Positions 6,594 through 54,613 of a stretch of 64,000 nt of DNA are shown here, one piece after another (position 1 is the first letter of the stretch; the number at the start of each line of letters is the position of its first letter). Made by a program: the position numbers and the translations under genes. Below the pieces are notes generated by a model that was given only the letters and a program-made list of their open reading frames with translations, was not told the origin of the DNA and searched no databases. The DNA comes from Saccharomonospora sp. NB11 (GTDB lineage: Bacteria; Actinomycetota; Actinomycetes; Mycobacteriales; Pseudonocardiaceae), in assembly GCF_015910535.1 (NCBI RefSeq), contig NZ_JACBJG010000007.1, positions 62,001 through 126,000 of the forward strand, in the 5' to 3' direction.

Positions 6594-8897
6594 GTGGGCA
6601 CGCGTGAGCGGCTCGCGGACCCGGTCCGACGGGTGGGGGTTCGCGTCGAAGGCGTGGTGCAGGGGGTCGGCTTCCGGCCGTTCGTGCACGGGCTGGCGCA
6701 GCGGTTCGGGCTCACCGGACACGTGGGCAACGACACCGAGGGAGTGGTGATCGAGGCCGAGGGGGCGCGCGAGGCGGTGTCCGCGTTCCTCAAGGCACTG
6801 CGTGTCGAAGCTCCCGTGCTGGCGACGGTCGACCGGGTCGACGTGGTCGACCTCGCGTGTCGGGGCGGCGACGGGTTCGTCATCGCCGACAGCGACATTC
6901 ACGGTCCACGTCGGACACTCGTGACCGCGGACTCGGCCACGTGCGAGGCGTGTCTGGCCGAGTTGTTCGACCCCCGCGGCCGGCGGTACCGCTACCCGTT
7001 CGTCAACTGCACCGACTGCGGGCCGCGTTACACGATCGTGCGCGACGTCCCCTACGACCGACCGAACACCACGATGGCCGCCTTCGACCTGTGTGCGGCG
7101 TGCGCGCGGGAGTACGACGACCCGACCGACCGCCGCTTCCACGCCCAACCGGTGTGCTGTCCCGAGTGCGGTCCGCGGTTGCGGCTCGTCGACGCCTCGG
7201 GACTCCCACTGGAGGGCGACCCGGTGTCACGGGTCGCGGAGTTGCTGCGTGCGGGCGCGGTGGTGGCCGTCAAGGGGCTCGGTGGTTACCACCTCGCGGT
7301 CGACGCGACGAACCCGTCGGCGGCGGCGACTCTGCGGGCGCGGAAACGCCGTGAGGACAAGGCGTTCGCCGTCATGGTCCCCACTCTCGACGACGCCCGC
7401 CGACTGTGTCATGTGGACGATATCGAGGCGCGAGTGCTCGCGGATCGCCGACGACCCATCGTGTTGCTCGACCGCCGTGCCTCCGGCGGCGTCGCCCCGG
7501 CGGTCGCACCCGGCACGCGCAGGCTCGGCCTCATGCTGCCGTACACGCCGCTGCATCACCTGCTGGTGCGGGAGGTCGGGACGCCACTCGTGCTCACCAG
7601 CGGCAACGTCTCCGACGAGCCCATCGCGTACACCGACGAGGACGCGGTGGCCCGCCTGGGCGGCATCGCCGACGCGTTCTGCGTGCACGACCGGCCGATC
7701 CACGTGCGCACCGACGACTCCGTGGTGAGCACGTGGCGCGGCACCGTCGTGATGGTCCGGCGTTCGCGCGGGTACGCGCCCGAGCCCGTCACCTGCGCGG
7801 CCGCGTTCCCGAGGCCCGTGCTCGCCTGCGGGGCCGAGCTGAAGAACACCGTGTGTCTGGCCTCGGGACGCAGGGCGGTGCTGTCGCACCACATCGGCGA
7901 CCTGAAGAACGTCGAGACGCTGCGTGCGTTCACCGAGGCCATCGAGCATCTCGCGCGACTCTTCGACATCCGGCCCGCCGTGGTGGCCCACGATCTGCAT
8001 CCCGACTACGCCTCCACGCGGTACGCGGTGGAGGAAAGCGGTCTCGACCCGGTCGGGGTGCAGCACCACCACGCCCACGTGGCGGCATGCCTGGCCGACA
8101 ACGGCCGCGACGACAGCGACGAGCGCGTGATCGGCGTCGCCTTCGACGGCACCGGGTACGGCACCGACGGAACGGTGTGGGGTGGGGAGTTCCTGCTCGC
8201 CACGTGTGCCGAGTTCGAGCGGGTCGGACACCTCGCGGCGGTGCCGATGCCGGGTGGGGACGTGGCAGTGCGGCAGCCGTGGCGGATGGCGGCCTCGTAC
8301 CTGCACGGCGTCGACGGAGCCGAGGCACTGCCCGTCGCGCGGCGGCAGGGCGCCCGCTGGGAGCAGGTGCGCCGGTTGCTCGACTCGCGACTGCCCGTGC
8401 CCCGCACGTCGAGTGCGGGGAGGCTCTTCGACGCCGTCGCGGCCGTGCTCGGCGTGCGCGACACCGTCACCTACGAGGGGCAGGCGGCGATCGGGCTGGA
8501 GCAACGAGCCGACCCGACATGTGCCGACGGCTACGAGGTGGGGATCGCCGACCGCGACGGCACGCTGATCGTCGACGGTCCCGGCCTCGTCCGGGCGGTG
8601 GTGGACGACCGGGGCCGGGGCAGTGAGCCCGCGGTGGTGGCGGCCCGGTTCCACAACGCTCTCGCCACCGCCGTGGGCCGGACCTGCCGGACGATCGCCG
8701 ACCGCACCGGCGTGCGCACGGTGGCGTTGTCGGGTGGCGTGTTCGCCAATCGGCTGCTGCTCACGCGCACGGCCGACGTGCTGGAGCGCGACGGCTTCAC
8801 CGTGCTGACCCATTCCCGGGTGCCGAGCAACGACGGTGGCATCAGTCTCGGGCAGGCCGTGGTGGTGGGTGCCCGCGACCGGGCGACACGCCGGTGA
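6594..8897 (+). CDS. hypF: Carbamoyltransferase HypF
   Basis: 767-residue enzyme that makes thiocarboxamide on HypE from carbamoyl phosphate, the source of the CN ligands of [NiFe] hydrogenase. Domains in order: acylphosphatase (VVQGVGFRPFVHGLA), two zinc fingers (CEACLAELF and NCTDCGPRY, then DLCAACAREY and CCPECGPRL), a YrdC-like nucleotide-binding domain, and a Kae1-like domain with the metal-binding HHHAHVAACLAD. The GTG start gives the expected family N-terminus. It stands apart from the other hyp genes, convergent to hypB. Confidence 0.96.
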   Translation: MGTRERLADPVRRVGVRVEGVVQGVGFRPFVHGLAQRFGLTGHVGNDTEGVVIEAEGAREAVSAFLKALRVEAPVLATVDRVDVVDLACRGGDGFVIADSDIHGPRRTLVTADSATCEACLAELFDPRGRRYRYPFVNCTDCGPRYTIVRDVPYDRPNTTMAAFDLCAACAREYDDPTDRRFHAQPVCCPECGPRLRLVDASGLPLEGDPVSRVAELLRAGAVVAVKGLGGYHLAVDATNPSAAATLRARKRREDKAFAVMVPTLDDARRLCHVDDIEARVLADRRRPIVLLDRRASGGVAPAVAPGTRRLGLMLPYTPLHHLLVREVGTPLVLTSGNVSDEPIAYTDEDAVARLGGIADAFCVHDRPIHVRTDDSVVSTWRGTVVMVRRSRGYAPEPVTCAAAFPRPVLACGAELKNTVCLASGRRAVLSHHIGDLKNVETLRAFTEAIEHLARLFDIRPAVVAHDLHPDYASTRYAVEESGLDPVGVQHHHAHVAACLADNGRDDSDERVIGVAFDGTGYGTDGTVWGGEFLLATCAEFERVGHLAAVPMPGGDVAVRQPWRMAASYLHGVDGAEALPVARRQGARWEQVRRLLDSRLPVPRTSSAGRLFDAVAAVLGVRDTVTYEGQAAIGLEQRADPTCADGYEVGIADRDGTLIVDGPGLVRAVVDDRGRGSEPAVVAARFHNALATAVGRTCRTIADRTGVRTVALSGGVFANRLLLTRTADVLERDGFTVLTHSRVPSNDGGISLGQAVVVGARDRATRR

Positions 8898-8947
8898 AAC
8901 CGGTCGTCGGCATCGGGTGGGGTGCCTTCGTGTTCGGCGAGGAACTG

Positions 8948-9009
8948 CGTGGCGGCGGGTGGATCGCGGCGCAACTCGCAGGCTGCGCCGCGATCCACCC
9001 GCCGCCACG
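8948..9009. terminator. Bidirectional terminator: 26-bp perfect hairpin between hypF and hypB
   Basis: Two 26-nt arms (8948-8973 and 8984-9009) are perfect inverted copies around a 10-nt loop. The hairpin sits in the 156-nt gap between the convergent hypF and hypB stops. There is no T-run on either strand, as is usual in actinobacteria. The arms are long enough that cruciform extrusion or transcript interference can be considered. Confidence 0.85.
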
Positions 9010-9053
9010 GTGTTGCTCGCCCGCTCACCGCCGCTTCAGGGCCCGGCGGGTGC

Positions 9054-9848
9054 TCACGAGGACGCCGACGGCACGGCCGACGACACCGACAGCGAGGACA
9101 CGGTCGAGGACTCCGACGATGCCGAGGACTCGGGCACGCCCGTCGCCTCGGCCGGCTGCAACTGCCGACGCAACCAGGAGAACCACTGAGACATGCCCTC
9201 GCCCGACACCGCCGAGGTCACCAGCAGCTCGGCGGCAGGATTGATCCGCTTGAGGTGCCGGGCGAAGTGGTCGACCTCGAATGTCAGGTACGGGATGAGA
9301 TCCGCCTTGGTGAGCACCACGAGGTCGGCCGCCCGGAACATGTGCGGGTACTTGAGCGGCTTGTCCTCGCCCTCGGTGGTGGAGGCCAGGACCACCCGTC
9401 GGCGCTCGCCCAGGTCGAACAGCGCCGGACACACCAGGTTGCCGACGTTCTCCACCACCACGAGCGACCGGTGCGGCGGGTCGAGTTCGCGCAGCGCCCT
9501 GGCCACCATGTCGGCGTCGAGGTGACATCCCGACCCCGTGTTGATCTGCACGACGCGGCAGCCCACCGCGCGCAGCCGGTCGGCGTCGAGCGAGCCCGCC
9601 TGATCACCCTCGACGGCACCGACGAAGGCGTCGACGGTCAACTCCCGCACCGTGCTCTCCAGCAGGGTCGTCTTGCCCGAGCCCGGCGCGCTCATCAGGT
9701 TGATCGCGAAGCACTCCCGGGAGGCGAGCCACGCCCGGTTCTTCTCGGCGAGTGCGTCGTTCTTCGCCAGCACGTCGCGTTCGACGGCCACCGTGTCGCG
9801 GTGCCCGGTGTCGATCTCGATGTCGTCACACCCGCAGGTCCCGCACAT
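9054..9848 (-). CDS. hypB: Hydrogenase nickel-insertion GTPase HypB
   Basis: 264-residue SIMIBI GTPase that drives nickel delivery into the hydrogenase large subunit. The N-terminus MCGTCGC carries the CxxCxC high-affinity metal site. The P-loop SAPGSGKTT is at residues 53-61, with ENVGNLVCP and LTKADL further on. The C-terminus ends in a Ser-rich tail of about 25 residues (SSASSESSTVSSLS...) not usual for the family. It is the last gene of the leftward operon and overlaps hypA by 23 nt. Confidence 0.96.
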   Translation of the reverse strand: MCGTCGCDDIEIDTGHRDTVAVERDVLAKNDALAEKNRAWLASRECFAINLMSAPGSGKTTLLESTVRELTVDAFVGAVEGDQAGSLDADRLRAVGCRVVQINTGSGCHLDADMVARALRELDPPHRSLVVVENVGNLVCPALFDLGERRRVVLASTTEGEDKPLKYPHMFRAADLVVLTKADLIPYLTFEVDHFARHLKRINPAAELLVTSAVSGEGMSQWFSWLRRQLQPAEATGVPESSASSESSTVSSLSVSSAVPSASS

Positions 9849-10179
9849 CGCGTTCCACCTCCACGTCCCGTATCCGCAGTTGTTGTCCCGATCTCACGTG
9901 TACGTCCATCGACCCGCACGAACAGGTGTCGAGGAACGACGACAGCTCCGACTCCGCCTCGCAGCGCGGACACCAGCCCCTGCCCGGCACGGTCTCGATC
10001 ACCAGCTCGGCGCCTTCCACCGGGGTGCCGCGGGTGACGGCGTCGAAGCAGAAGCGCAGTGCGTCGGCCTCCACACCGGACAGTGCGCCGACCTCCAGCC
10101 GCACCGACAGCACGCGGGCGCCACCGGTGTGGTCGACGACCGCGTCCACGACGCTCTGCGTGATCGACAGCTCGTGCAT
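9826..10179 (-). CDS. hypA: Hydrogenase nickel chaperone HypA
   Basis: 117 residues. It starts MHELSITQ, giving the N-terminal Met-His-Glu nickel site, and has a zinc ribbon. The first zinc pair is CPRC. The second reads TCSCGS, which is C-x-C rather than the usual C-x2-C, a small departure seen directly in the sequence. It delivers Ni to HypB and the large subunit. It begins 2 nt after the hypE stop and overlaps hypB. Confidence 0.94.
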   Translation of the reverse strand: MHELSITQSVVDAVVDHTGGARVLSVRLEVGALSGVEADALRFCFDAVTRGTPVEGAELVIETVPGRGWCPRCEAESELSSFLDTCSCGSMDVHVRSGQQLRIRDVEVERDVRDLRV

Positions 10180-10181
10180 GG

Positions 10182-11258
10182 TCAACAGATCCGGGGCAAG
10201 GGGTCGCCGACGAGCAGGTCGGCGATCCGGGTACCCCCGAACGCCGTGTTGAGCAGCACCGTGCCCGCGGGGTCGGGGCCGACCTTGCCGATCACGGCGG
10301 CCTGTGCGCCCTGGGGATGTCCGCGCAGCGCGGCGAGCGCCTCCTCGGCGTACGCGCCGTCGACCACCGCGACGAACCGGCCCTCGCACGCGACGTAGAG
10401 CGGGTCGATGCCCAGCAGCTCGCATGCACCCCGGACCTCGTCGCGCACCGGCACGGCGTCCTCGTCCACGACCACGGACACCTCGGCGGCGCGGGCGATC
10501 TCGTTCAGCACCGTCGCGACCCCGCCGCGCGTCGCGTCCCGCATGGCGCGCACCCCGGGCACGGCCAGCAGTCGAGCGCAGAGGTCGGCCAGCGGCGCGG
10601 TGTCGGACACGAGGTCCGACTCGATGTCGAGTTCACCGCGCGCGAGCATCACGGTGACGCCGTGATCGCCCACGGGGCCCGAGACCAGGACCGCGTCGCC
10701 GGGGCGAGCGGTGTGGATGCCCAGGGCCCGGTCGGTGGGCAGCAGGCCGATGCCCGTCGTGTTGACGTAGCAGCCGTCTCCGCTGCCGCGCCCGACGACC
10801 TTCGTGTCGCCGGTCACCAGCGTCACACCCACCGCGTCGGCGCACTCCCGCATCGAGGTCACGATGCGGCGCAAGTCGGTGATCGGGAAGCCTTCCTCCA
10901 GGATGAAGCCGCACGACAGATACGCGGGAGTGGCGCCCGCGACGGCCAGGTCGTTGACGGTGCCGTTCACGGCGAGGTCGCCGATGTTGCCGCCGGGGAA
11001 GAACAGCGGCGACACGACGTAGGAGTCGGTGGTCATGGCCAGCCGGGTGCCACCGAGCACGAGGTCGGCGGCGTCGCCGAGCGGTTCCAGCAGCGCGTTG
11101 CGGAACGCGTCGACGAACACCGCGTCGACCAGCGTCTGGGTCGCCTTGCCACCCGCGCCGTGTGCTGCCGTGACGCGCTCCTCCCGCACTCTCGGCTTGC
11201 GGCGGCGGGCCCGTTCGATGCGGTCGAGGACGTCCTCCTCGGTGCGCAGGGTGCTCAT
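10182..11258 (-). CDS. hypE: Hydrogenase CN-ligand synthesis protein HypE
   Basis: 358 residues of the PurM/AIR-synthase fold. HypF carbamoylates its C-terminal Cys, and HypE dehydrates this to a thiocyanate that supplies CN to iron. The protein ends in the diagnostic PRIC, so the acceptor Cys is intact. AAHGAGGKATQTLVD and TDSYVVSPLFFPGGNIGDLA are conserved ATP-site stretches. Its ATG overlaps the hypD stop by 4 nt (ATGA). Confidence 0.96.
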   Translation of the reverse strand: MSTLRTEEDVLDRIERARRRKPRVREERVTAAHGAGGKATQTLVDAVFVDAFRNALLEPLGDAADLVLGGTRLAMTTDSYVVSPLFFPGGNIGDLAVNGTVNDLAVAGATPAYLSCGFILEEGFPITDLRRIVTSMRECADAVGVTLVTGDTKVVGRGSGDGCYVNTTGIGLLPTDRALGIHTARPGDAVLVSGPVGDHGVTVMLARGELDIESDLVSDTAPLADLCARLLAVPGVRAMRDATRGGVATVLNEIARAAEVSVVVDEDAVPVRDEVRGACELLGIDPLYVACEGRFVAVVDGAYAEEALAALRGHPQGAQAAVIGKVGPDPAGTVLLNTAFGGTRIADLLVGDPLPRIC

Positions 11259-42163: not shown

Positions 42164-42464
42164 CGTAGTTGGCCCTCGACTGCCGTCGACCGGGCCCACG
42201 GGCGGGGGAGACGCCGGTTGTGGCTCACATCACGCACTGGCCACAGTGGACTGACGCGGGGCAGCGCGGCGCGACGCGGCGCGGGTCGTGGTGGCGTAAT
42301 TTCCGGCCCCCCTACAGGGATTCTGTGCGTTTTCCATGATCGTGACAGACTGCGCTCGGCTCGTTACATCGGAAGTTCCCGGTCAGTAGGATCGCCGTCG
42401 TCGGGAAACCGAATTCCCTTCGGTGCGCGTGGCGCCGGCGGATCTTGAGGAGGCGTGCTCGACA
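42164..42464. promoter_or_regulatory. Divergent promoter region of purC and the DUF574 methyltransferase
   Basis: About 300 nt without a gene. For the rightward gene a possible -10 TAGGAT is at 42387. A block rich in GCGGCGCG at 42258-42286 has no clear role. No purine riboswitch pattern was recognised. Confidence 0.4.
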
Positions 42465-43286
42465 GTGGCGATGCCCCGAGGAGCACTGAACCCGGACGGG
42501 CCCAGTGGCGCCGTCCTGCCCAACATTGCCCGTATCCGGAACTTCTGGCTGGGCGGTGCGAACCACGGTGAGGCAGACCGGGAGATGGCCGACCAGATCG
42601 GAGTCTGCGCGCCGTACATCCCCTACCTCGTCCGCAAACAGCGCGAGCTCGTCCGTCGGCAGGTGCGGTTCCTCGTCGAGGAAGGAGTGACCCAGTTCCT
42701 CGACCTCGGTTCGGGGTTGCCCGACGAGGGCTACGTGCATCACGTGGCCCAGGCGGCCGATCCCGAGTGCCGGGTGGCGTATGTGGACGCCGACCCGTCG
42801 ATCGCCGGTGACAGCAAGGAGTTGTTGGAGGGATCGGTCGGCACGCGGTTCGTGGTGGCGGACTGCCGCGACGTCGAGGGCGTGTTGTCCCACGACGACG
42901 TCCGAGCCGTGCTCGATCCGACCCGGCCGTTCGTCGTGCTCATGACCGAGCTGCTGTTGCACATCCCCGATTCCGAGGGCGCCGACGAGTTCGTCGCCTC
43001 GTGGGTGGACGCGCTGCCCAGCGGCGGCTACCTCGCGATCTCCCACTTCGGTGAGGACGAACAGGTCCTCGAAGGACTGCGGCTCTTCGAGAACCTCAGG
43101 TTCGGTCGGTTCCCCGAGGTGAGTCTGCGCTCGCGGGAGCGGGTCGCGCAGTTCTTCGCGGGACTCGACCTGGTCGAGCCCGGCGTGGTGCCCGCGCCGT
43201 TGTGGCGGCCCGACCCCGGCGACGACGAGGACCTGCGCAACCCCGACGAGGTGCGGATGTTCGCCGGGATCGGGCGCAAGAGCTGA
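42465..43286 (+). CDS. SAM-dependent methyltransferase, DUF574 (Methyltransf_19) type
   Basis: 273 residues. It has the family's N-terminal NIARIRNFWLGGANH and the variant SAM motif FLDLGSGLPDEG. GTG at this position is favoured by GAGGAGG 11 nt upstream; an ATG two codons later is the alternative. Members are very numerous in actinomycetes and mostly uncharacterised. It converges on the UbiA-family gene with 3 nt between stops. Confidence 0.88.
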   Translation: MAMPRGALNPDGPSGAVLPNIARIRNFWLGGANHGEADREMADQIGVCAPYIPYLVRKQRELVRRQVRFLVEEGVTQFLDLGSGLPDEGYVHHVAQAADPECRVAYVDADPSIAGDSKELLEGSVGTRFVVADCRDVEGVLSHDDVRAVLDPTRPFVVLMTELLLHIPDSEGADEFVASWVDALPSGGYLAISHFGEDEQVLEGLRLFENLRFGRFPEVSLRSRERVAQFFAGLDLVEPGVVPAPLWRPDPGDDEDLRNPDEVRMFAGIGRKS

Positions 43287-43289
43287 CCG

Positions 43290-44195
43290 TCACACGGCCA
43301 GCGCGACGCCCACGACGGCGACGTCCGCGGCGAGCACCACGGGCATGACGGTGCGGCGCAGCCAGGTGGAACTCACCGGCGCGCCGACCGACACCCGGTG
43401 GGTGAGCAGGACGGCCGAGCCCGTGAACAGCGCGTGTCCCGTGGCCACCACCAGCGTCGCGACGAGACCGCCGAGCCACCACGATCCCCACACCAGGACG
43501 GCGAGGCCACCGAGCAGCAGCAGGCAGGCCAGCCGCAACGCCCCGACGGGACCACGCCGCACACTCGTGGTTCGCATGCCCGCCGCGGCGTCGGCGGCGG
43601 CGTCGGGCACCGACCACCACACGACTCGCGCCGCCGCGAGCACGGTGAGCCCGGCGAGCACCAACGCGGTCGGGGGCGGCAGGTCGGGTTGCAGGGCGGC
43701 GTGGGTGAGCAGGCTCGGCAACATCACGACACCGCAGGCGAACACCAACGCCCCCACCAGTCCTCGCGACTTCAGCCGCACCGGCTCGACGTTGTAGAAC
43801 ACGTGGGCGAGCAGCACGCCCGCGGCGGCGAGCACCACCGCGATGTGTCCGGTGTGGAGGGACACGACGAGTGCCAGCACCAGGCCCGCCATGGCCTCTC
43901 CGAGCACGAGTGCGTAGCCTCGGCGGGCACCGAGGCGCGCGGCGGCCGACGAGAGCGTCGACCGCTCGGGATGTCGGGCGTCGCTGTCGAGGTCGACGAC
44001 CGTGTTGAGCACCAGACCCGCTTCCACGAGCAGCACCGCCGACACCACGGAGGCCAGTGCGGGCCAACTCAGCACGTCCGCCGGTGTCGCCGCGGCGAAG
44101 CACGCGCCCCACAACGCCTGACACACCGTGTTCAGCCAGAACGGGAACTCCAGCCGGTGGACGGCGGCGAGTTCCCTCGCGGTCAGTCGCGACAT
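43290..44195 (-). CDS. UbiA-superfamily membrane prenyltransferase / possible terpene synthase
   Basis: 301 residues with about eight or nine membrane helices. The first aspartate-rich motif is NTVVDLDSD (Asn64, Asp68, Asp72) and the second DAAAD with downstream GMRTT (Asp198, Asp202); both are intact. UbiA enzymes attach prenyl groups to aromatics, and some act as terpene cyclases. The gene is last in an operon with a P450 and a class II diterpene cyclase, which favours a terpene role. The start overlaps the P450 stop by 13 nt. Confidence 0.85.
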   Translation of the reverse strand: MSRLTARELAAVHRLEFPFWLNTVCQALWGACFAAATPADVLSWPALASVVSAVLLVEAGLVLNTVVDLDSDARHPERSTLSSAAARLGARRGYALVLGEAMAGLVLALVVSLHTGHIAVVLAAAGVLLAHVFYNVEPVRLKSRGLVGALVFACGVVMLPSLLTHAALQPDLPPPTALVLAGLTVLAAARVVWWSVPDAAADAAAGMRTTSVRRGPVGALRLACLLLLGGLAVLVWGSWWLGGLVATLVVATGHALFTGSAVLLTHRVSVGAPVSSTWLRRTVMPVVLAADVAVVGVALAV

Positions 44196-45439
44196 GCGGT
44201 CACCCGCACGCGGAGCCGGGAGGACGGGGCCATCGCGTGGCCGCGCAGTTGCAGCCTGCCTGCGGCAGGGTTGAGACACCGCCACTCTCTGCGCCGCAGC
44301 ACGGACGCGGTGATCAGGCGCAGCTCCAGCATCGCGAGCTGGCTGCCCAGGCACCGCCGCGCGCCGCCGCCGAACGGGAGGTAGACCGACGGCGGGTGCT
44401 TGCGGCCGAGGAACCGGGACGGGTCGAAGCGCAACGGCTGCGGGAACGCGTCGTCCTGGCGGTGGGCGAGGTAGATGCTCGTGGTCAGCGTCGTGCCCGC
44501 CGGGAACGTGCGGCCGAGAAGCCGGGCCGGGCAGCGGAGTCGCCGGTTCTCCGCCACCGTCACCGGAGGCGCGAGCCGCAGCGACTCGGAGATGACCGCG
44601 GTGAGCAGCGGGGCCGCCGACGCCGTCGGCACGTCGTCGCTCGTGGCGTCGAGTTCGTCGAGCACGTCGTGCCGCAGTGACTCGTCGACCGCGAGCCGGT
44701 ACAGCGTCCACGCCGCCGCCGACGCGGTGGTCTCGTGACCGGCGAACAGCAGGGACACGAGCTGGTCGCGCAGCTCGGCGTCGTTGTCGCGGAGATCGGC
44801 CAGGGGGCCGTCGGCGTTCAGCAGCAACGACGCCAGCGTCGCGGGCTCGCGCGTGCTCCCGGAGCGGGCCCAGTCCACGAGTCGGCCGTCGAGGTCGGCA
44901 CTCGACCGGGGCAGGCCACCGCGCAGGAACCGGTGTGCGAGGGTGCGGGGCCGCGAGCCGAGGGCGTCGTCGATCCAGGACGTGAAGTCGTCGAGTACCG
45001 CCTCGGTCCGCCGATCCGTGTCGCCGAGCACCAGCCGCGCGATGATCCGGAGCGCGACCTGGCGGGTCCAGTCGGCCAACACGACGGTCTGCCCCACGGT
45101 CAACGCGTCGACGGCGTCGTGGACGGTCTCCGCGATCAGCGGTGCGTAGGTGGTCAGCCGACGACCTCGCAGCGGCGGCCCGAGCACCTTGCGGTACGCG
45201 GTGTGGCGCGGGCCGTCGACCCAGAGCAGCGAGTGTTCGCCGAACAGCGGCCGGAGGCTGCGACTGCCCGGGTGGTCCAGCTCGCTGTCCGAGGCGAACA
45301 ACCACTCGATCGTCTCGGGGTCCCACAACAGCAGTTTCGGTGGATCGTCGGCGAGGCGGACGTGCCGTTCGGCAACGGTGCGGTGCGCGTCCAGGAACGG
45401 CAGCGTCCGCAACGCCATGCGTAGTTCGGTGCGGTTCAT
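44183..45439 (-). CDS. Cytochrome P450
   Basis: 418 residues. It has I-helix AGHETT (233-238), ExxR in ESLR (285-288), and heme loop FGGGARRCLG with Cys363 as the thiolate ligand. No fused reductase is present and no ferredoxin gene lies nearby. It sits between the DxDD cyclase and the UbiA-family gene with coding overlaps on both sides, so the probable substrate is the diterpene made by the cluster. Confidence 0.92.
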   Translation of the reverse strand: MNRTELRMALRTLPFLDAHRTVAERHVRLADDPPKLLLWDPETIEWLFASDSELDHPGSRSLRPLFGEHSLLWVDGPRHTAYRKVLGPPLRGRRLTTYAPLIAETVHDAVDALTVGQTVVLADWTRQVALRIIARLVLGDTDRRTEAVLDDFTSWIDDALGSRPRTLAHRFLRGGLPRSSADLDGRLVDWARSGSTREPATLASLLLNADGPLADLRDNDAELRDQLVSLLFAGHETTASAAAWTLYRLAVDESLRHDVLDELDATSDDVPTASAAPLLTAVISESLRLAPPVTVAENRRLRCPARLLGRTFPAGTTLTTSIYLAHRQDDAFPQPLRFDPSRFLGRKHPPSVYLPFGGGARRCLGSQLAMLELRLITASVLRRREWRCLNPAAGRLQLRGHAMAPSSRLRVRVTACRD

Positions 45440-47046
45440 CCCACTCCGGTTCCCACGGGGAGGGTGGCGTCGGCGAGCAGTGGTGCGGTGCGCGGGTCGG
45501 TGTGTGCCGCGTACAACGCGGCCAGCATCTCGACCCGGATGATGCGGGTCGGCGTGTAGACGTCCTTGTCGTGCCACAACGGCGGGTGCGGGCGCTCGTC
45601 AGTCCAGTGCCGCAGCAGTGTGCGGGCGCCGCGTTCGGCTGCCGGGGCGATGCGTTCGTCGGTGACCTCGCTCGCCCGTAGCAGCAGCCGGACCGCGTAC
45701 GCGGTCTCCTCCCGGGTCGGCTCCCACGTGCCCCAGCGCCCACCGTCCTGTTCGGTCGCGAGCACCCAGTCCACGGCGCGGCGCACGGCGTCGGCTGCCG
45801 CGGGGCCGCCGTGCCGGGCCAACGCGACGGCACAGCAGACGGTGGCGTAGTAGGGCGAGGCGTGCCACTTGTCGGTCCAACTGCCGTCCGGATGTTGCTG
45901 GTCGACGAGCCAGCCCACGACCGTCTCCAGACGTTCGGCGCACCAGCGGCGCTGGGTGTCGTCGAGCACCGTGCTGGAGGCCGGGAGGGCGAGGGTGCTG
46001 CCCAGCGCCTGCACGGTGTGGGCGTTCGCCGTGGTCGACGGGGTGCGTTCCTCCGGGAAGCAGAAGAAGTGGTCGCCGCGGTCGAATCCGCGCAGCACGT
46101 CGGGGGAGCGAGGGCTGCCGAGCAGGGCGAGGGCGAGCAGCCCGGTGGCGGTGTCGTCGACGTCGACGGGCAGACCGTCCCCGCCCGCGGCGCCGTCGTC
46201 CCCGAACGCGGCGTGGAGGCTGCTGACGAGTTCGTCCAACACGGGACGCGGCGCCGTGAGCGGCACGCCCGTGTCGAGCAGTGTGGACAGTACCCACGAG
46301 CGTTCGAACAGCATCAGCGGCGCGGCGACGGGCACACCGCCGTTCGTGTGCTGCACCGACAGCAGGTAGGCGACACCCGGGTGGCTTCCCTCCCGTAGCA
46401 CGTCGTCGCCGAGCCACGCGGCGGTGGCAGCGGGCGAGCAGCCGACGAGCCGATCGTCCACAGGACGCACGGACCGTGCGCCTCGGACGGACGGACCGAA
46501 CAGTTCGAGCGAGTGCCAGAGCTTCTCCGGGACGGGATGGCCTTGCGCGAGCGCGTCGCGGATCGCCTCCAGCAGCTCGGGTCGGGTCCCGGGTGGCTCG
46601 GGCAGTGTCGGGCGGCCGAGCCGCGCGAGGTGGGCGTTCACCTCGGACAGCAGCGCGGGCACCATGATCTCCACCGCCACGGTGTCCGGCAGCGCGTCCA
46701 GGTCGGCGAGGCGGCGGGACAACGCCTCGACACCGCGGTCGGCCGCCGACGCCACTGCGGGGTCGGCGTCGGCGCGGTTCCGTTCGGTCAACAGCGCCTC
46801 GGTGGCGCTCAGGGTGGTGACGAGGTCGTACTCGGCCGGGCCGCCCCACGCGCCGTCGCCGCGTTGCTCGCGGAGCAGGAACGCGACCCGTTGTCGGTGG
46901 TGTGGCAGCGACGGCGCCAGCGCGACGAGCCGCGCGGTCTCGTAGACACACGGCTCGAACTGCCCGTTCGGGTCGGCGGCCATGTCGGTGAGCAGGGTTC
47001 GAACTGTCTCGGCCGTACGGTCCAGCCAGGACACTCGCGGTGTCAT
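45436..47046 (-). CDS. Class II diterpene cyclase (DxDD type)
   Basis: 536-residue prenyltransferase/squalene-cyclase fold. The protonating DVDD motif is at residues 295-298. Repeated QW-like turns are present (REQRGDGAWGG, QQHPDGSWTD, EQDGGRWGTW). No class I DDxxD is visible, so the diphosphate is kept. The family protonates geranylgeranyl diphosphate to labdane- or halimane-type diphosphates, as Rv3377c does. The ATG follows GAGGAG at 8 nt. No GGPP synthase is present in the window, so precursor comes from elsewhere. Confidence 0.88.
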   Translation of the reverse strand: MTPRVSWLDRTAETVRTLLTDMAADPNGQFEPCVYETARLVALAPSLPHHRQRVAFLLREQRGDGAWGGPAEYDLVTTLSATEALLTERNRADADPAVASAADRGVEALSRRLADLDALPDTVAVEIMVPALLSEVNAHLARLGRPTLPEPPGTRPELLEAIRDALAQGHPVPEKLWHSLELFGPSVRGARSVRPVDDRLVGCSPAATAAWLGDDVLREGSHPGVAYLLSVQHTNGGVPVAAPLMLFERSWVLSTLLDTGVPLTAPRPVLDELVSSLHAAFGDDGAAGGDGLPVDVDDTATGLLALALLGSPRSPDVLRGFDRGDHFFCFPEERTPSTTANAHTVQALGSTLALPASSTVLDDTQRRWCAERLETVVGWLVDQQHPDGSWTDKWHASPYYATVCCAVALARHGGPAAADAVRRAVDWVLATEQDGGRWGTWEPTREETAYAVRLLLRASEVTDERIAPAAERGARTLLRHWTDERPHPPLWHDKDVYTPTRIIRVEMLAALYAAHTDPRTAPLLADATLPVGTGVG

Positions 47047-47195: not shown

Positions 47196-49232
47196 TCACT
47201 GCTCGGACGTGGTGACGCGGAACTCCGCACTCGTGCCCGTGAACTCCCGCACCGTCGACGACAGATCCTTCGCGTCCCCGTGGTAGCGGATGCGATAGGT
47301 GCCCGCGGGTGCGTCGGCCGGGACCGTCCACGTGGCGGTCACCTTGGACGCGGAGATGCCGTGCCGCTTCCACGTCAGCGTGGTCGAGGCGTCACCGTCG
47401 TCGGCGATCCGTCGCCACTCGCCGTCCTCCCACCGCTGCACCTCCAGGTACGTGCTGCCACGGTGCAGGTCGTTGCCGGGATGGGCGCCGGAGAACACGA
47501 CGCTCGCCGTCTCTCCCGGCAGGTACACCGACCTGGGCTGCGTGAGCACGTCCCCGAATCGGGTGCCGAGGACGGGAGTGTCGAGAACGACGCCGGGCTG
47601 CAGCACGAGCTGGCGCGACGACAGGTCCGGCGGCGCGGTGCCGACGGGCAGCGTGGTGCCGTCGCGCAGGGCGGTGGCGAGATCGTGCGCGGTCTGTCGG
47701 AACGCGTCCAGCTCCCATCGGCCGAACAACGTCGACCCGCCCTCGTAGTGCTGGGCGTCGTACTCCTCGGGGGTCGTCACGTAGTGGGCGTAGCCGTTGC
47801 TGTACCCGGCGACGAGCACGTCCCGGACGTCGGCGCCCACCACGTCGGCGACGGTCCGACGCAGTCGCAGCCCGGCGGAGATCGTCACCTCGCCGGGGAT
47901 CGCGACGAGGTACAGGGACCCGATGCGCACGAGCTGCACCGGGACGCGCTCCGTCACCCACGGGTAGAGGTCGTTCATGGCCCCGATGGGCACGGCCACG
48001 GCCTTCGGTGCCTGGCAGTCGCGCAGTTCGGGCGACACCTCGTAGAGGATCTTGTCGGACACCAGGTCGAGCACGGGATTGTCGCCCTCGGCGAACAGCG
48101 GGAACGCGGGGCCGTCCTCCGTGCTGCCCGCGGCCATCGCCGCTCCCACGGCCGGATCACACGTGCGGTGTTCGCGCCCGTCGCCGGTGAATTCCGGCCG
48201 GACAGTGACGTCGGAGAGGTCGATGTAGACGGTCGCGGCGTCGAGGCCACCGCTCACCGGCGTGGTGGGCCGGTCGAGCTGCGCCGCCGCGGCGCGGTAC
48301 TGCCGCAGTCCGATCTCGGCGGTTCGGTGCCGGTCCTCGGGGGTGGGCGACGGGGCGAGATCCAGGTTGGGGGACATGTCGCCCGCGTTGGTCTGGGCGA
48401 ACGCGGCCACGAAGTCCGGGGAGGCGTCGTCGAGGTAGTCGACGCCCTCGACCTGACGTTCCCAGTGGTAGGCGGCGTAGCCCTTGTTGTCGGCGCTGAT
48501 CAGCCGATTGTCGCCCGACATGCTTGTGTTGTGCGTCGGGAACCAGTTGATCGCTCCGACGGGTTCGCCGTCGCGTTCGATGCGCAGCAGTGTCGTCTGC
48601 GGATCGATCGCGTCCGGGAAGAATGCGCGGTCGTCCTCGGGGTTGTGGTCGAACGCCTCGCGCGACCGGTTGGCGCTCGCGCCGGTCAGCTCACCGTGCG
48701 TGAGCCGCAGCGTCGAGGGAGCGAGGTCGTCGTGCGCGCGGTGGACGGAGTCGAGGATGCCGTCGGTGATCGCGTCGAACGTCTTCTGGTGGAAGCCCAG
48801 CGTGGTGAGGTTGTAGAGCAGGTGATGGGAGTAGCCGCCGGGGCCCGAGTGCGTGTGGGTGGCGGTGATCAGCACGTTCTGTTCGTCGTAGAGGTCGCCG
48901 TACTCGTCGGCGAGCCGGTCGAGCACTGCCTGGTGCACGCTGGAGAAGATCATCGGGGAGTCGACGACGACCAGCAGTACGCGCTCGTCCGTCGCCTGGT
49001 CGACGATGACGAACGACCGAGCATGCAGGCGCGTGTGCAGTCCTTCGGCCTGCTGGTCGAGTCGGCCGTAGCCCATCATGCCGACCTCGGCGATCTCGCC
49101 GGTGGCGTCGGCGATGCCGCGTCCGACGAGGTAGCCCTCGTCGGAGGGGGTGGCCTGTGCCGCGGGGGCGAGGGTGATCGCCAGTGCCGTCGCGGCGGAC
49201 AGTGCGCCCAGCCGCCGAAGTCGCTTCCGCAT
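47196..49232 (-). CDS. Secreted neutral ceramidase
   Basis: 678 residues. A Sec-type signal (RRLGALSAATALAITLAPAAQA) is followed by the ceramidase fold: ATHTHSGPGGYSHHLLYNL with zinc-binding His, and NAGDMSPN containing the catalytic Ser. The C-terminal beta-sandwich ends FTGTSAEFRV. It cleaves N-acyl-sphingosine to sphingosine and fatty acid outside the cell. Bacteria rarely make ceramide, so it probably acts on host or environmental lipid. Confidence 0.93.
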   Translation of the reverse strand: MRKRLRRLGALSAATALAITLAPAAQATPSDEGYLVGRGIADATGEIAEVGMMGYGRLDQQAEGLHTRLHARSFVIVDQATDERVLLVVVDSPMIFSSVHQAVLDRLADEYGDLYDEQNVLITATHTHSGPGGYSHHLLYNLTTLGFHQKTFDAITDGILDSVHRAHDDLAPSTLRLTHGELTGASANRSREAFDHNPEDDRAFFPDAIDPQTTLLRIERDGEPVGAINWFPTHNTSMSGDNRLISADNKGYAAYHWERQVEGVDYLDDASPDFVAAFAQTNAGDMSPNLDLAPSPTPEDRHRTAEIGLRQYRAAAAQLDRPTTPVSGGLDAATVYIDLSDVTVRPEFTGDGREHRTCDPAVGAAMAAGSTEDGPAFPLFAEGDNPVLDLVSDKILYEVSPELRDCQAPKAVAVPIGAMNDLYPWVTERVPVQLVRIGSLYLVAIPGEVTISAGLRLRRTVADVVGADVRDVLVAGYSNGYAHYVTTPEEYDAQHYEGGSTLFGRWELDAFRQTAHDLATALRDGTTLPVGTAPPDLSSRQLVLQPGVVLDTPVLGTRFGDVLTQPRSVYLPGETASVVFSGAHPGNDLHRGSTYLEVQRWEDGEWRRIADDGDASTTLTWKRHGISASKVTATWTVPADAPAGTYRIRYHGDAKDLSSTVREFTGTSAEFRVTTSEQ

Positions 49233-49323: not shown

Positions 49324-50661
49324 CTAGCCGCCCCAGTCCGGACGCAGCGGCATCGACGCCTCGCCGGACGGCGCCGGTTTCACGCCGAGCACCTGGTGCA
49401 ACTCGATGCGACGCCGTTCGAACGACAGGCGCGACGCGGCCATGTAGAGCGCCCACACCCGCGCCCGACGCAGCCCCGCCTCCCGTACGGCCTCGTCCCA
49501 GTGCGCGTCGAGATTGGCGCACCAGGCCGCGAGCGTCCGCGCGTAGTGCTCGCGCAGGTTTTCCTCGTGCCGCACCTCGAAACCGTTGTCCTGCATGGCC
49601 GACACGATCGTGCCGACCCCTTCCAGCTCGCCGTCGGGGAACACATACCGGTCGATGAACGGCCCGGTGCGGTGCGACTCGTGGGTGGTCGGCCGGGTGA
49701 TGCAATGGTTGAGCAGGCGTCCGCCCTCGCGCAGCCGCGCCGCCAGGAAGCGGAAGTACGCGGGCAGGTTGCGGGCGCCGACGTGTTCGGTGAGGCCGAT
49801 GGAGGACACGGCGTCGAACCCGTGCTCGGTGACGTCGCGGTAGTCGCCGTGCCGTACCTCGGCGCGGTCGTCGAGACCCCGGCGTCGCAGCTTCCGCTGC
49901 GCCCACGACGCCTGTTCGCGCGACAGCGTGACTCCCACGGCGTGCACCCCGTAGTGCTCCGCGGCGTGCGCGACCATGCCTCCCCAGCCGCAGCCGACGT
50001 CGAGCAACCGCATGCCGGGCCGCAGTCCCAACTTGCGACACACGAGGTCGAACTTGTGGAACTGCGCCTGCTCCAGCGTCGCGTCGGGAGCCGGGTAGCA
50101 CGCGCAGGTGTAGGCCATCGACGGCCCGAGCACCAGCTCGTAGAACCGGTTCGACACGTCGTAGTGCTGCGCGATCGCCCTGCTGTCGCGGCCCTTCGAG
50201 TGCCGGAGCCCGTCGAGGGTGCGACGCAGCCGACTCGGTGCTTCCTCCGGCGGGGGCGGGAGCAACCTCAGGTGCCGGGGGCCCAGGTCGCGCAGGATCG
50301 TCCACTTGGCCGCGGTGTCGAGTCCTTCCACCACGCCGCTCGTCGCCCGCAACACGGAGTACAGATCGCCCACGACGTCGAGCGCGCCCGTGACGTACGC
50401 CCTGGCGAGGCCGAGTTCACCGGGCGCGGACAGCAGATACGACAGTGCCGCGGGCGAGCGCACCTCGATGCGCAACGACGCGTCGCGCGCACCGGCGCTG
50501 CTGCCGTCGTACGCGGTGACCGCCACGGGAGCGTCGTCGCGCAGGAACCGCGCGAGCGTGGTGCAGACACCGGTTGCGGCTGCCTGCACCGGCTCCGGCG
50601 TGACGGGAGTCCGGATCGGCTCGTTCGCGTTCGTCCAGGTGTCGGGCGCTGCGTTGCCCAT
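49324..50661 (-). CDS. tmsB: Cyclopropane-fatty-acid-synthase-like methyltransferase (TmsB/BfaB type)
   Basis: 445 residues. The core has the SAM motif LLDVGCGWGGMVAHAAE, with YDVSNRFYELVLGPSMAYTCACY before it and GLTEHVGARNLPAYF after, typical of CFA synthases. Next to an FAD-dependent reductase homologous to TmsA/BfaA, it most likely methylates the double bond of oleoyl lipid at C10, the first step to 10-methylstearic (tuberculostearic) acid. The ATG is taken as the nearest start with AAGGGAG at a sound distance. Confidence 0.85.
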   Translation of the reverse strand: MGNAAPDTWTNANEPIRTPVTPEPVQAAATGVCTTLARFLRDDAPVAVTAYDGSSAGARDASLRIEVRSPAALSYLLSAPGELGLARAYVTGALDVVGDLYSVLRATSGVVEGLDTAAKWTILRDLGPRHLRLLPPPPEEAPSRLRRTLDGLRHSKGRDSRAIAQHYDVSNRFYELVLGPSMAYTCACYPAPDATLEQAQFHKFDLVCRKLGLRPGMRLLDVGCGWGGMVAHAAEHYGVHAVGVTLSREQASWAQRKLRRRGLDDRAEVRHGDYRDVTEHGFDAVSSIGLTEHVGARNLPAYFRFLAARLREGGRLLNHCITRPTTHESHRTGPFIDRYVFPDGELEGVGTIVSAMQDNGFEVRHEENLREHYARTLAAWCANLDAHWDEAVREAGLRRARVWALYMAASRLSFERRRIELHQVLGVKPAPSGEASMPLRPDWGG

Positions 50662-50698
50662 CGGGCTCACACTCCCTTCGGCACACCGCATCGCGGTG

Positions 50699-52123
50699 TC
50701 ACTCGGCTCGGACGCACTTGTCGTAGAGGTTCAGCAGTCGGTCGTCGGGGTCGTAACGGCGCTTGACGCGGTCGTAGACCGCGCCGTTGTAGAGCTGCCA
50801 GAAGGTGCTCTCGTCGTAGAACGCCTCCGAGTACAGCGACTTGCGCCCACCGAGTTCGGTGACCTTCTCCTCGACCAGCCGGTTGTGCGCGTCGGGTCGG
50901 GTGCCCGGGCGGATGGGCACGGTTCCCCAGAATCCGAAGTTGACGTACAGCGTGTGCGGGTCGAGTTCGTACAGCGGCCACTGCCGGTCGGGGTGGCGTT
51001 GCCGGACCGGACAGAGCCACACCGGCCGCAGCGGCACCTCGGCCAGCAGGAAGTCGAGGAACTCACTCGCCCGGTCCACCGGCACCTCGACGTCCTGGAT
51101 CACGGCCTCGCGTCGTGGCCGTCCCAGCAGTCGGTGGACGCGGTCGGACAACCGGTAGCGGCGGTCGAGCGACACGAGCTTCCAGTACCGTTCCGAGCGG
51201 AGTCGCTGCGGTCCGAGCAGCAGCCGCACCGGCCGGTACTGCGCGCCGAAGGCCCGCGAGCACCAGAACCAGTCGGTGTCCCACCGCCACAGGTAGTCCC
51301 GGACGGGCAGGTAGTCGATGTCGTGCTCGCGGATCGAGCGGTAGTAGATGTCGAGCCACGTGTAGTCGCTGACCCGGGGAGCCTCGTCGGTGAAGGTGCC
51401 CAGCGTCAGGTACAACTCGTCCTCGCCGAACACGGTGCCGTCGACGAAGTCGGCCCGACCCTCGGCGCAGATCGCGGCCAGTTCCGCGAACGCGGCCCGC
51501 GGGTCGCTGTACCGCACGTGGCGCAATCGCACGTACGGGCGGACGGGTTCCAGCTCCACCCGCAGCCGCAGCGCGTACCCGAGCGTCCCGTACGAGTTGG
51601 GGAAGGCGAAGAACAGGTCGGCGTGCTCGTTGTCCGGGCGCGCGAGCACCACCTCGCCGTCGCCGGTGAGGACGTCGAGTTCCAGCACCGACTCGTGCGG
51701 CATCCCGTTGCGGAACGACGACGACTCGATGCCGAGGCCCGTGACCGCGCCGCCCACGGTGATGGTCTTCAACTGCGGCACCACCATCGGCATCAGGCCG
51801 TGCGGCAGGGTGGCGTCGACCAACTGCTCGTAGGTGACCATGCCCTCGACGTCCGCGGTGCGTGCCACGGGGTCGACGTCGAGCACGTGGGTCAGCCCGG
51901 AGACGTCCAGGCCCGGAGTGTCACGGCGGCGTCGGGAACGGAAGAGGTTCGACGTCGACTTGGCGAGGCGGACGGGGGAGTCCGGCGGCTGCGCGACGAA
52001 CTGGGCCCGCACCGACTCCACTCGTTCGGCGTAGCCGGGTGCGAGCGGCCGTGTCGCGGCCGACGGCGTGTCCGGCTCCCGAGATGACGCAGACCGATTG
52101 TCCAGCACCATGCGTTCCAGCAT
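50699..52123 (-). CDS. tmsA: FAD-binding reductase of 10-methyl fatty acid synthesis (TmsA/BfaA type)
   Basis: 474 residues, FAD_binding_4 fold with VVPQLKTITVGGAVTGLGIES as the flavin-binding stretch, and a C-terminal domain ending RRYDPDDRLLNLYDKCV. Homologues (Rv0449c, TmsA) reduce the 10-methylene intermediate made by TmsB. The pair has a 37-nt gap. The small TmsC is not seen. Start is uncertain between MLERMVLD and the Met four codons later. Confidence 0.85.
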   Translation of the reverse strand: MLERMVLDNRSASSREPDTPSAATRPLAPGYAERVESVRAQFVAQPPDSPVRLAKSTSNLFRSRRRRDTPGLDVSGLTHVLDVDPVARTADVEGMVTYEQLVDATLPHGLMPMVVPQLKTITVGGAVTGLGIESSSFRNGMPHESVLELDVLTGDGEVVLARPDNEHADLFFAFPNSYGTLGYALRLRVELEPVRPYVRLRHVRYSDPRAAFAELAAICAEGRADFVDGTVFGEDELYLTLGTFTDEAPRVSDYTWLDIYYRSIREHDIDYLPVRDYLWRWDTDWFWCSRAFGAQYRPVRLLLGPQRLRSERYWKLVSLDRRYRLSDRVHRLLGRPRREAVIQDVEVPVDRASEFLDFLLAEVPLRPVWLCPVRQRHPDRQWPLYELDPHTLYVNFGFWGTVPIRPGTRPDAHNRLVEEKVTELGGRKSLYSEAFYDESTFWQLYNGAVYDRVKRRYDPDDRLLNLYDKCVRAE

Positions 52124-52163
52124 CGCCCCTGGTGGCGGGTGGTGCAGGACGAGCGGCGCCGGG

Positions 52164-52514
52164 TCACTCGGTGTTCTCGCCGGTTGGCTCGACCGGGCGG
52201 TCACCCTCCAGTTCGGCCAGGCGCTGCTTCAGGCGGGCGAGTTCGGTGTTCGCCGCGTCGAGTTCCCGTTCCAACTGCAGGATGCGGCGGGCCGACACGA
52301 GGTTGTGTCCCTCGTCGAACAGTTCTCGCAGTCGTCCGGCCAGGCCGAGCTGATGGCGGGAGTAGCGACGATGGCCACCGCTCGACCGCTGCGGCGTGAC
52401 GACACCCGCGTTGTCGAGACTGCGCAGGAACGGTTGCTCCACCCCGAGCAGCTCGGCGGCCTGGCCTGTGCTGAAGGCGGGGTAGTGCTCGTCGTCGAGC
52501 TTCCGCAGGTCCAT
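52164..52514 (-). CDS. MerR-type small DNA-binding protein upstream of tmsA
   Basis: 116 residues. The winged helix begins FSTGQAAELLGVEQPFLRSLDNAGVVTP, followed by HRRYSRHQL. A C-terminal coiled coil (LELERELDAANTELARLKQRLAELEG, read approximately) serves dimerisation. No effector domain is present. It precedes tmsA by 40 nt on the same strand, so it may be co-transcribed and may regulate the 10-methyl fatty acid genes. Confidence 0.88.
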   Translation of the reverse strand: MDLRKLDDEHYPAFSTGQAAELLGVEQPFLRSLDNAGVVTPQRSSGGHRRYSRHQLGLAGRLRELFDEGHNLVSARRILQLERELDAANTELARLKQRLAELEGDRPVEPTGENTE

Positions 52515-52650: not shown

Positions 52651-53085
52651 GTGGGTGACACTGTCGTGACTGTTCTGGATTCCCCGGTGCCCTCTCGGCC
52701 TTCGACGACCACGACGCTCGACGACGCGGGCGCCGCCGTGGACCGCGTCGGTCGGAGCGTGCGGCGGACCTGCTCCGCGCTCGCGCGGCGCACCGACGAC
52801 GTGCAGGCTCTCCGGGACGCCGTGCGCAGCGCCGCCCGACTCACCCGCGCGCTGGCCACGGCCGTGGACGGCATCGCCGAGCATGCCCGTGACATCGGGG
52901 AGCCGACCGCCACCGACGACCTCGTGGCCGACCTCGCGGCGCTTCGCAACTGTCTCGCCACGGGTGCTGCCGTGGTGGACCCGGCGCTCGATGATCTCCG
53001 CGAATGGACCACCCCCGACGCCGACCGCGAGTTCGCGCGGCGCTACCAGGAGTGGGCGGCCGCGAGCACCCCCGCCGGGTCGTAG
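52651..53085 (+). CDS. Hypothetical helical protein
   Basis: 144 residues from GTG (a second GTG five codons on is possible). It is Ala/Asp/Arg-rich and almost entirely helical by appearance (AALRRTD-like heptads, DDLVADLAALRNCLATG), without membrane helix or metal motif. No family recognised. It has a strong promoter just upstream. The 3' end overlaps the convergent FAD oxidase gene by 43 nt. Confidence 0.6.
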   Translation: MGDTVVTVLDSPVPSRPSTTTTLDDAGAAVDRVGRSVRRTCSALARRTDDVQALRDAVRSAARLTRALATAVDGIAEHARDIGEPTATDDLVADLAALRNCLATGAAVVDPALDDLREWTTPDADREFARRYQEWAAASTPAGS

Positions 53086-54395
53086 CGCCGACGCGCGGTC
53101 TCCAGCGCCGACCCGGCGTCCCCGAGCTGACGCGCCCAGTCGACGCAGCCCTTCGGCACCGCACTGCCGGGATACACCGTTCCTCCGGCCGCCGTGACGA
53201 GGTCGGCCAGCATCGCGTTGCGTTCGAGTCGGCGCGCCAGATCGATCGGGTCGTGCGGGTCGGCGACGGTCAACAGCCCGAACAACCACACCGGTTCCCC
53301 CGACGTCGAGGTCGGCAGGCGCAGCAGGGGAGTGGTGACGCGGTCGGGTCGCAGCGGGTAGAGCAGCACCGTGTCCGAATCGGACACCTTCCACGTGTCG
53401 CGCACCTGCCCGACGATCTCGGCCACCTCGGTGCCGGGCAGGAACACCGTGAGCCACGGGTGCGGCCGGTACCACTCGCCGTTGTCCCGCAGTCGACGTT
53501 CCCCGTCGGCCATCCGGTCGCAGAACTCGCCGTAGCCGTACTCGGTCACCTCGGTGAGTGACGGGTCGAACGACAGGTCGGCCAACAGCTTCTCGTCGTC
53601 CACATCGGACGGCAACAGGTAGTACGTGGTCGCGTCGAGCCGGTACAGCCACGACCCGTCCACTCGGAGCACGCGGCCCTCCACGTGATCGAACCGGTCC
53701 TGCTCGACCACCGTGCGTTGGTCGGCGAGGAACGTGTCGAGCTCGCGGTAGTACAGCTTGCGGCGGCGAGCGCTGCGAGCCGCGGTGCCGAGTGACACCG
53801 TCGCGCGGGTGATCACTCCACACCGGCCCGAACCCGCCCGGACCGCGTCGAAGAGGTCGCGGTTCTGCTCCGCCGAACACCGCACGACCTCGCCGGCGCC
53901 GGTCACCACCTCCAGCTCCCGGACGGTGTCCGTCTGAGCCCCGTGCCGGTGGCTCGCCCCGCCGAGCCCGCCGACCGAGAGCGTGCCGCCCACCGAGAGA
54001 CCGAGATGGTCGGGCAGCACTCTCGGCGTCAGACCGCGTGCGAGCGCCGATTCCGTGACTCGCCGCCAGGAAGCGCCCGCGTCGGCCACCACTTCCCGGC
54101 CGACCCCGGGATGAACCCGGGCCAGGCCGCTCAGGTCCATCACCAGGCCACCCTCGACGAGACTCTGGCCGAAGCACGAGTGGCCGGTGCCACGCAGCGC
54201 CACGGGAGTGCCGGTGTCCGACGCGAAGGTGAGCACAGCGGCGACCTCGGACGCGTGGGCCGGGCGGACCACCGTGCCAGGCCGGGCGTGCACGAGCCCG
54301 CCCCAGTCGCGGGAGAACCGGGCAAGGGTTGCGTCGTCGTCGACGACGTGGAGGTGGCCGGGGACAGTGCGGGAAAGGTGAGCGGCGAGCGACAC
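53043..54395 (-). CDS. FAD-dependent oxidase with cytokinin-dehydrogenase-like C-terminus
   Basis: 450 residues. The PCMH-type FAD domain has RGTGHSCFGQS, whose His is the usual covalent flavin attachment site. A conserved LGLSVGGTLSVGGLGGASHRHG follows, and the substrate-domain end reads RYDPAGVLAAAHSW, as in cytokinin dehydrogenases and related oxidases. TACAGT lies 6 nt before the GTG start, so the mRNA is probably leaderless. Substrate unknown. Confidence 0.87.
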   Translation of the reverse strand: MSLAAHLSRTVPGHLHVVDDDATLARFSRDWGGLVHARPGTVVRPAHASEVAAVLTFASDTGTPVALRGTGHSCFGQSLVEGGLVMDLSGLARVHPGVGREVVADAGASWRRVTESALARGLTPRVLPDHLGLSVGGTLSVGGLGGASHRHGAQTDTVRELEVVTGAGEVVRCSAEQNRDLFDAVRAGSGRCGVITRATVSLGTAARSARRRKLYYRELDTFLADQRTVVEQDRFDHVEGRVLRVDGSWLYRLDATTYYLLPSDVDDEKLLADLSFDPSLTEVTEYGYGEFCDRMADGERRLRDNGEWYRPHPWLTVFLPGTEVAEIVGQVRDTWKVSDSDTVLLYPLRPDRVTTPLLRLPTSTSGEPVWLFGLLTVADPHDPIDLARRLERNAMLADLVTAAGGTVYPGSAVPKGCVDWARQLGDAGSALETARRRYDPAGVLAAAHSW

Positions 54396-54613
54396 GGCGT
54401 GACTGTAGCGGCCCCTGCCCGGGCGGCCCCGGGACGTGCCCGGGAACGCCGCATGGCTCGATCCGACGTCCTGGCGCGCATTCACACGGATGCAGGCTGA
54501 AACCCCGGCGGAGGCGAACCGATCTTCACCAGATCAGGACGTCCGGTCGGTGTGTTTTTCCTCTCTCCGGCCGGGTATCTCCTGCAAGATCAACCGTGCG
54601 AGAGGAGCGAGCG

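Follow-up and report, generated by a model that had tools for sequence, protein, structure and literature searches.

A likely three-gene diterpenoid operon of the PtmT2-P450-PtmT1 kind in Saccharomonospora sp. NB11, with a UbiA-superfamily protein in the predicted role of class I synthase

The window analysed here, a stretch of 64,000 nucleotides from Saccharomonospora sp. NB11, contains three overlapping genes coding for a class II diterpene cyclase, a P450 and a UbiA-superfamily membrane protein, with no recognised class I terpene synthase among them. This raises the question of which enzyme carries forward the diphosphate made by such a cyclase, and whether the UbiA protein does so as a terpene synthase or acts in another capacity. 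The evidence assembled below makes it likely that these genes constitute a diterpenoid operon of the PtmT2-P450-PtmT1 kind, in which GGPP would be converted to ent-copalyl diphosphate (ent-CPP), then to a diterpene by the UbiA-type enzyme, and finally hydroxylated by the P450.

All three genes lie on the minus strand. The cyclase gene (cyc; 45436-47046; 536 aa, ATG start) overlaps by 4 nt (ATGA) the P450 gene (44183-45439; 418 aa), which overlaps by 13 nt the gene for the UbiA protein (43290-44195; 301 aa). Their products match, all above cut-off, the Pfam families SQHop_cyclase_C, p450 (168 bits) and UbiA (77 bits), and display respectively a DVDD motif, the P450 motifs FAGHETT, ESLR and FGGGARRCLG, and both Asp motifs of the UbiA superfamily, confirming the coordinates, families and motifs of the original prediction throughout. 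A search of NCBIfam returned no specific name for any of the three. In comparisons with four relatives, the dN/dS ratios were 0.12-0.39 for the cyclase and P450 and 0.26-0.56 for the UbiA protein, which is the least constrained and fastest-evolving of the three. As these ratios are well below 1 for each gene, the genes are intact, real and under purifying selection.

The DVDD motif of the cyclase (residues 295-298, D295-V-D297-D298) is invariant in 24 relatives. Its best match in the PDB is the ent-CPP synthase PtmT2 (5bp8; E 8e-114), with 50% identity across 503 aligned residues, followed by Tpn2 (1e-83) and Rv3377c (7e-26). The residues required in Tpn2, namely those of the DxxxxE motif, H180, H342, K383 and Y489, align with D121/E126, H178, H343, K393 and Y497 of the window cyclase, while the position of Tpn2 Gly485, a switch between labdane and clerodane products, is occupied by D493, with an Asp also found there in PtmT2. 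The presence of the required residues, taken together with the Asp at the switch position, predicts a labdane diphosphate as the product. This is most likely ent-CPP, with the ent configuration drawn from kinship only. In a quick tree of cyclases PtmT2 groups with four other sequences (89% SH-aLRT support) and is placed beside the main operon clade. The window enzyme is best described as a predicted ent-copalyl diphosphate synthase of the PtmT2 subfamily.

This relationship extends to the neighbouring genes. Among 393 genomes of a large genus, a single one (G1172) encodes PtmT2 at 97% identity, and from this match itself the genus is judged to be Streptomyces. Its locus (L221) has the order cyclase-P450-UbiA seen in the window, with overlaps of 1 nt and 4 nt; the UbiA protein scores 354 bits with the operon UbiA model, and, on the opposite side of the cyclase, a class I synthase is encoded ~2.1 kb away, in the position expected for PtmT3. 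The P450 and UbiA genes of this locus would correspond to ptmO5 and ptmT1, an identification made from family, position and kinship and not from an annotated record. The window P450 shares a clade and 48% identity with this putative PtmO5, the label being a matter of position. In the P450 tree, the L221 protein is one of six members of a fully supported group (SH-aLRT) within the clade of operon P450s. A search of the PDB with the ptm-type P450 recovered no close chain. PtmT1 is a dedicated ent-atiserene synthase (PMC10847714), the platensimycin/platencin diterpene synthases have been described as canonical and UbiA-type (PMC10301674), and PtmO5 hydroxylates C11 of ent-kauranol (PMC8180501). 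A 2022 survey assigned a "likely UbiA cyclase" partner to 14% of 342 actinobacterial ent-CPP synthase clusters (PMC9814783). Judged by sequence kinship, the three window genes match the core of the platencin pathway gene for gene, and in order. The suggestion that the combination itself points to something unprecedented does not stand, given the same three-gene order in the platencin-type cluster and the survey just cited. With PtmT1 characterised and UbiA cyclases already counted in PMC9814783, this kind of pathway is known, and what is added here is its evolutionary context.

The operon had been described as lacking a class I synthase and a GGPP synthase. This is true of the operon itself; three PF00348 prenyl diphosphate synthases are encoded on other contigs of the genome, and one of them, adjacent to a squalene-hopene cyclase-like gene, resembles the GGPP synthase IdsB. 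Profile searches of the whole genome with PF19086 and PF03936 detected no class I terpene synthase, and the possibility that one is hidden at another site was rejected on this ground. The same two models, both of which give matches in other members of the family, gave none in any of the nine genomes (the window's included) that combine this cyclase with this UbiA protein, leaving in all nine no recognised class I synthase able to serve in place of UbiA. The UbiA gene adjoins the cyclase in eight of these genomes and lies elsewhere in the ninth (G156).

The motifs of the UbiA protein, N64xxxD68xxxD72 and D198xxxD202, are invariant in 26 relatives, and its AlphaFold model (pLDDT 95.5) retrieved UbiA structures as the only strong matches in a Foldseek search. 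To our knowledge, very few bacterial UbiA-type terpene synthases have been characterised. Most proteins of the superfamily are prenyltransferases, and the Asp motifs fit either chemistry; in NCBIfam, the highest-ranking models are those for generic prenyltransferases and chlorophyll synthase, none of them reaching its cut-off, and a methyltransferase gene is linked to the operon. These observations could be read to mean that the protein couples an acceptor with the bicyclic diphosphate (or with GGPP), yielding a meroterpenoid that the P450 and methyltransferase would decorate. However, in a maximum-likelihood tree of 54 proteins (IQ-TREE, careful setting), 38 window-type proteins and the protein in the PtmT1 position form one group with support of 99/99. 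The PtmT1-position protein is nested within the window-type clade, and its forced exclusion is rejected (p-AU 0.007). Moreover, no acceptor-making gene was found to accompany the operon in distant genera. We hence regard the prenyltransferase reading as unlikely. Of the two roles that the original prediction had offered for UbiA, the nesting makes coupling of the bicyclic diphosphate to an acceptor the less likely one, and the role of class I diterpene synthase partner of the cyclase is well supported.

The same tree bears on whether the window UbiA could be a prenyltransferase with a housekeeping role in quinone, heme or cell-wall synthesis, present here by chance, as its superfamily membership would allow. 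The genome encodes five other UbiA-family proteins, namely heme O synthase, MenA, DPPR synthase, an SCO3242/EboC-type protein and one without assignment; all five, along with ten distant proteins, fall outside the operon clade, although some of the housekeeping branches are long and the exact positions of these outside sequences are uncertain. The phylogeny that had been proposed for UbiA thus shows no grouping with a housekeeping quinone enzyme, MenA being a separate and distant gene, and a housekeeping role, which we hold to be extremely improbable, was rejected on the tree and the separate MenA. H13, E100, W193 and P197 are common to the window protein and the PtmT1-position protein and absent from the MenA of the genome. 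The two former proteins share only 33% identity, which leaves room for PtmT1-type chemistry to have arisen late in the history of the clade. As UbiA evolves faster than the cyclase and P450, the skeleton made in the window may differ from that of the known relative. Beyond the window's family, no UbiA match among 394 genomes sampled across the class scores above 66 bits, and these matches branch outside the operon clade; plasmid records yielded no UbiA relative in our searches.

Within the window's family, the operon is present in 35 fetched loci that represent at least 14 genera, named Saccharomonospora among them; these loci were chosen from the best cyclase matches and are not a random sample. 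Across 86 cyclase loci, a UbiA gene occurs within 2.5 kb in 35, a class I synthase in 29 and neither in 21, and the two occur together only in the ptm-type locus. Cyclase loci with neither partner, and a genome (G255, locus L109) that keeps the cyclase beside a Methyltransf_19 gene without an adjacent P450 and UbiA, a UbiA relative being encoded elsewhere in that genome, could be taken to indicate that UbiA is catalytically minor or acts elsewhere, with the CPP dephosphorylated to a bicyclic alcohol prior to oxidation by the P450. Such a scheme is very improbable, given that UbiA is retained across genera, its Asp motifs unchanged and its dN/dS under 1, and is translationally coupled to the P450 in most loci. 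In one genome (G515, locus L073, cyclase at 8735-10375), an operon-type cyclase and P450 occur without UbiA, and a class I synthase is encoded at a distance of ~1.7 kb; this looks like a swap of the class I partner.

Two further genomes show distinct arrangements. In G411 (L091, 8736-15798) a distant cyclase (32%) is accompanied by a PtmT1-clade UbiA gene 4-5 kb away and by other P450s, making this another type of cluster that draws on the same clade of UbiA proteins. In G306 the entire cyclase-P450-UbiA operon occurs twice, the copies having diverged (L064 and L065).

The cyclase occurs in nearly every sampled genome of two genera, a pattern closer to that of a conserved lineage trait than to that of a trait peculiar to particular strains.

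Convergent with the UbiA gene, across a gap of 3 bp, is a gene for a SAM-dependent methyltransferase (Methyltransf_19, PF04672, 227 bits; 42423-43286, plus strand). This tail-to-tail arrangement recurs in 29/36 operon loci, including those of genera in which the other flanking genes differ. The operon-linked Methyltransf_19 proteins group together, and seven further copies encoded in these loci fall outside; the group has two other members, whose genes likewise adjoin the cyclase. By gene neighbourhood and kinship, then, the methyltransferase is co-inherited with the operon. It is possibly a fourth member of the system, and that it methylates the operon product is our guess.

The remaining flanks of the operon (ceramidase, CMAS, SAICAR synthetase and similar) contain no ptm tailoring set. 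The neutral ceramidase gene (47196-49232, minus strand) lies directly upstream of the operon and is kept there in Saccharomonospora and a few related genera, and not in others. Beyond it, a CMAS-type methyltransferase adjoins an FAD_binding_4 oxidoreductase (49324-52204, minus strand), a pair which we take to resemble that making 10-methyl fatty acids. An FAD oxidase with a cytokinin dehydrogenase substrate-binding domain (53043-54485, minus strand) is unusual in such a bacterium.

In the pathway that we favour, with the UbiA protein as class I partner, GGPP would be supplied by a prenyl diphosphate synthase encoded elsewhere. The DVDD cyclase would protonate GGPP and fold it into the presumed labdane diphosphate, most likely ent-CPP. 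The Asp motifs of UbiA would hold Mg2+ as the diphosphate is removed, and the resulting cation would cyclise to a polycyclic diterpene. The skeleton is ent-atiserene in the one characterised relative, and in the window it might be another ent-CPP-derived one. The P450 would then hydroxylate this skeleton, and methylation of the product by the linked Methyltransf_19 enzyme is possible. The final product is probably a small oxidised diterpene; no reported structure for it, and no paper on the operon or its product in Saccharomonospora, Saccharopolyspora or their family, was found in the open literature, many papers being available by subscription only.

The analysis delineates a clade of ~38 UbiA-type proteins, drawn from at least 14 genera, to which the one protein of known product belongs; this clade offers a panel for learning how the UbiA fold cyclises copalyl diphosphate. 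The analysis also adds a co-inherited methyltransferase to the picture of the pathway and suggests an origin for the platencin core. As a speculative extension, about which we are doubtful, the operon might make a conserved lineage metabolite in nearly all members of several Pseudonocardiaceae genera by means of the cyclase, UbiA-type synthase, P450 and a dedicated Methyltransf_19 enzyme, with skeletons varying from genus to genus as UbiA diverges fastest, and the Streptomyces platencin core might have been recruited from there.

Several known systems resemble the operon or its proteins in part. MenA, CtaB and DPPR synthase share the membrane fold and Asp motifs of the window UbiA but are products of separate genes outside the operon clade. 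In the tuberculosinyl diphosphate pathway of Rv3377c/Rv3378c a non-canonical enzyme likewise acts after a class II cyclase; however, Rv3377c is far more distant from the window cyclase (94 bits versus 384 for PtmT2) and Rv3378c is not a UbiA protein, and a pathway of this type was rejected as its cyclase is too distant. Tpn2/Cyc1, which makes terpentedienyl diphosphate, has the fold family, DxDD motif and conserved His, Lys and Tyr of the window cyclase, but possesses Gly485 where the latter has the labdane-type Asp, and its system uses the canonical class I partner Tpn3 in place of UbiA. The closest counterpart is the ptm cluster of Streptomyces platensis. Unlike this cluster, the window is without a PtmT3-type class I synthase and the many tailoring genes, and has the linked Methyltransf_19 gene instead; the PtmT2-P450-PtmT1 core itself is shared, with the same families in the same order, overlapping reading frames, cyclases at ~50% identity, P450s at 48%, and UbiA proteins of the same clade.
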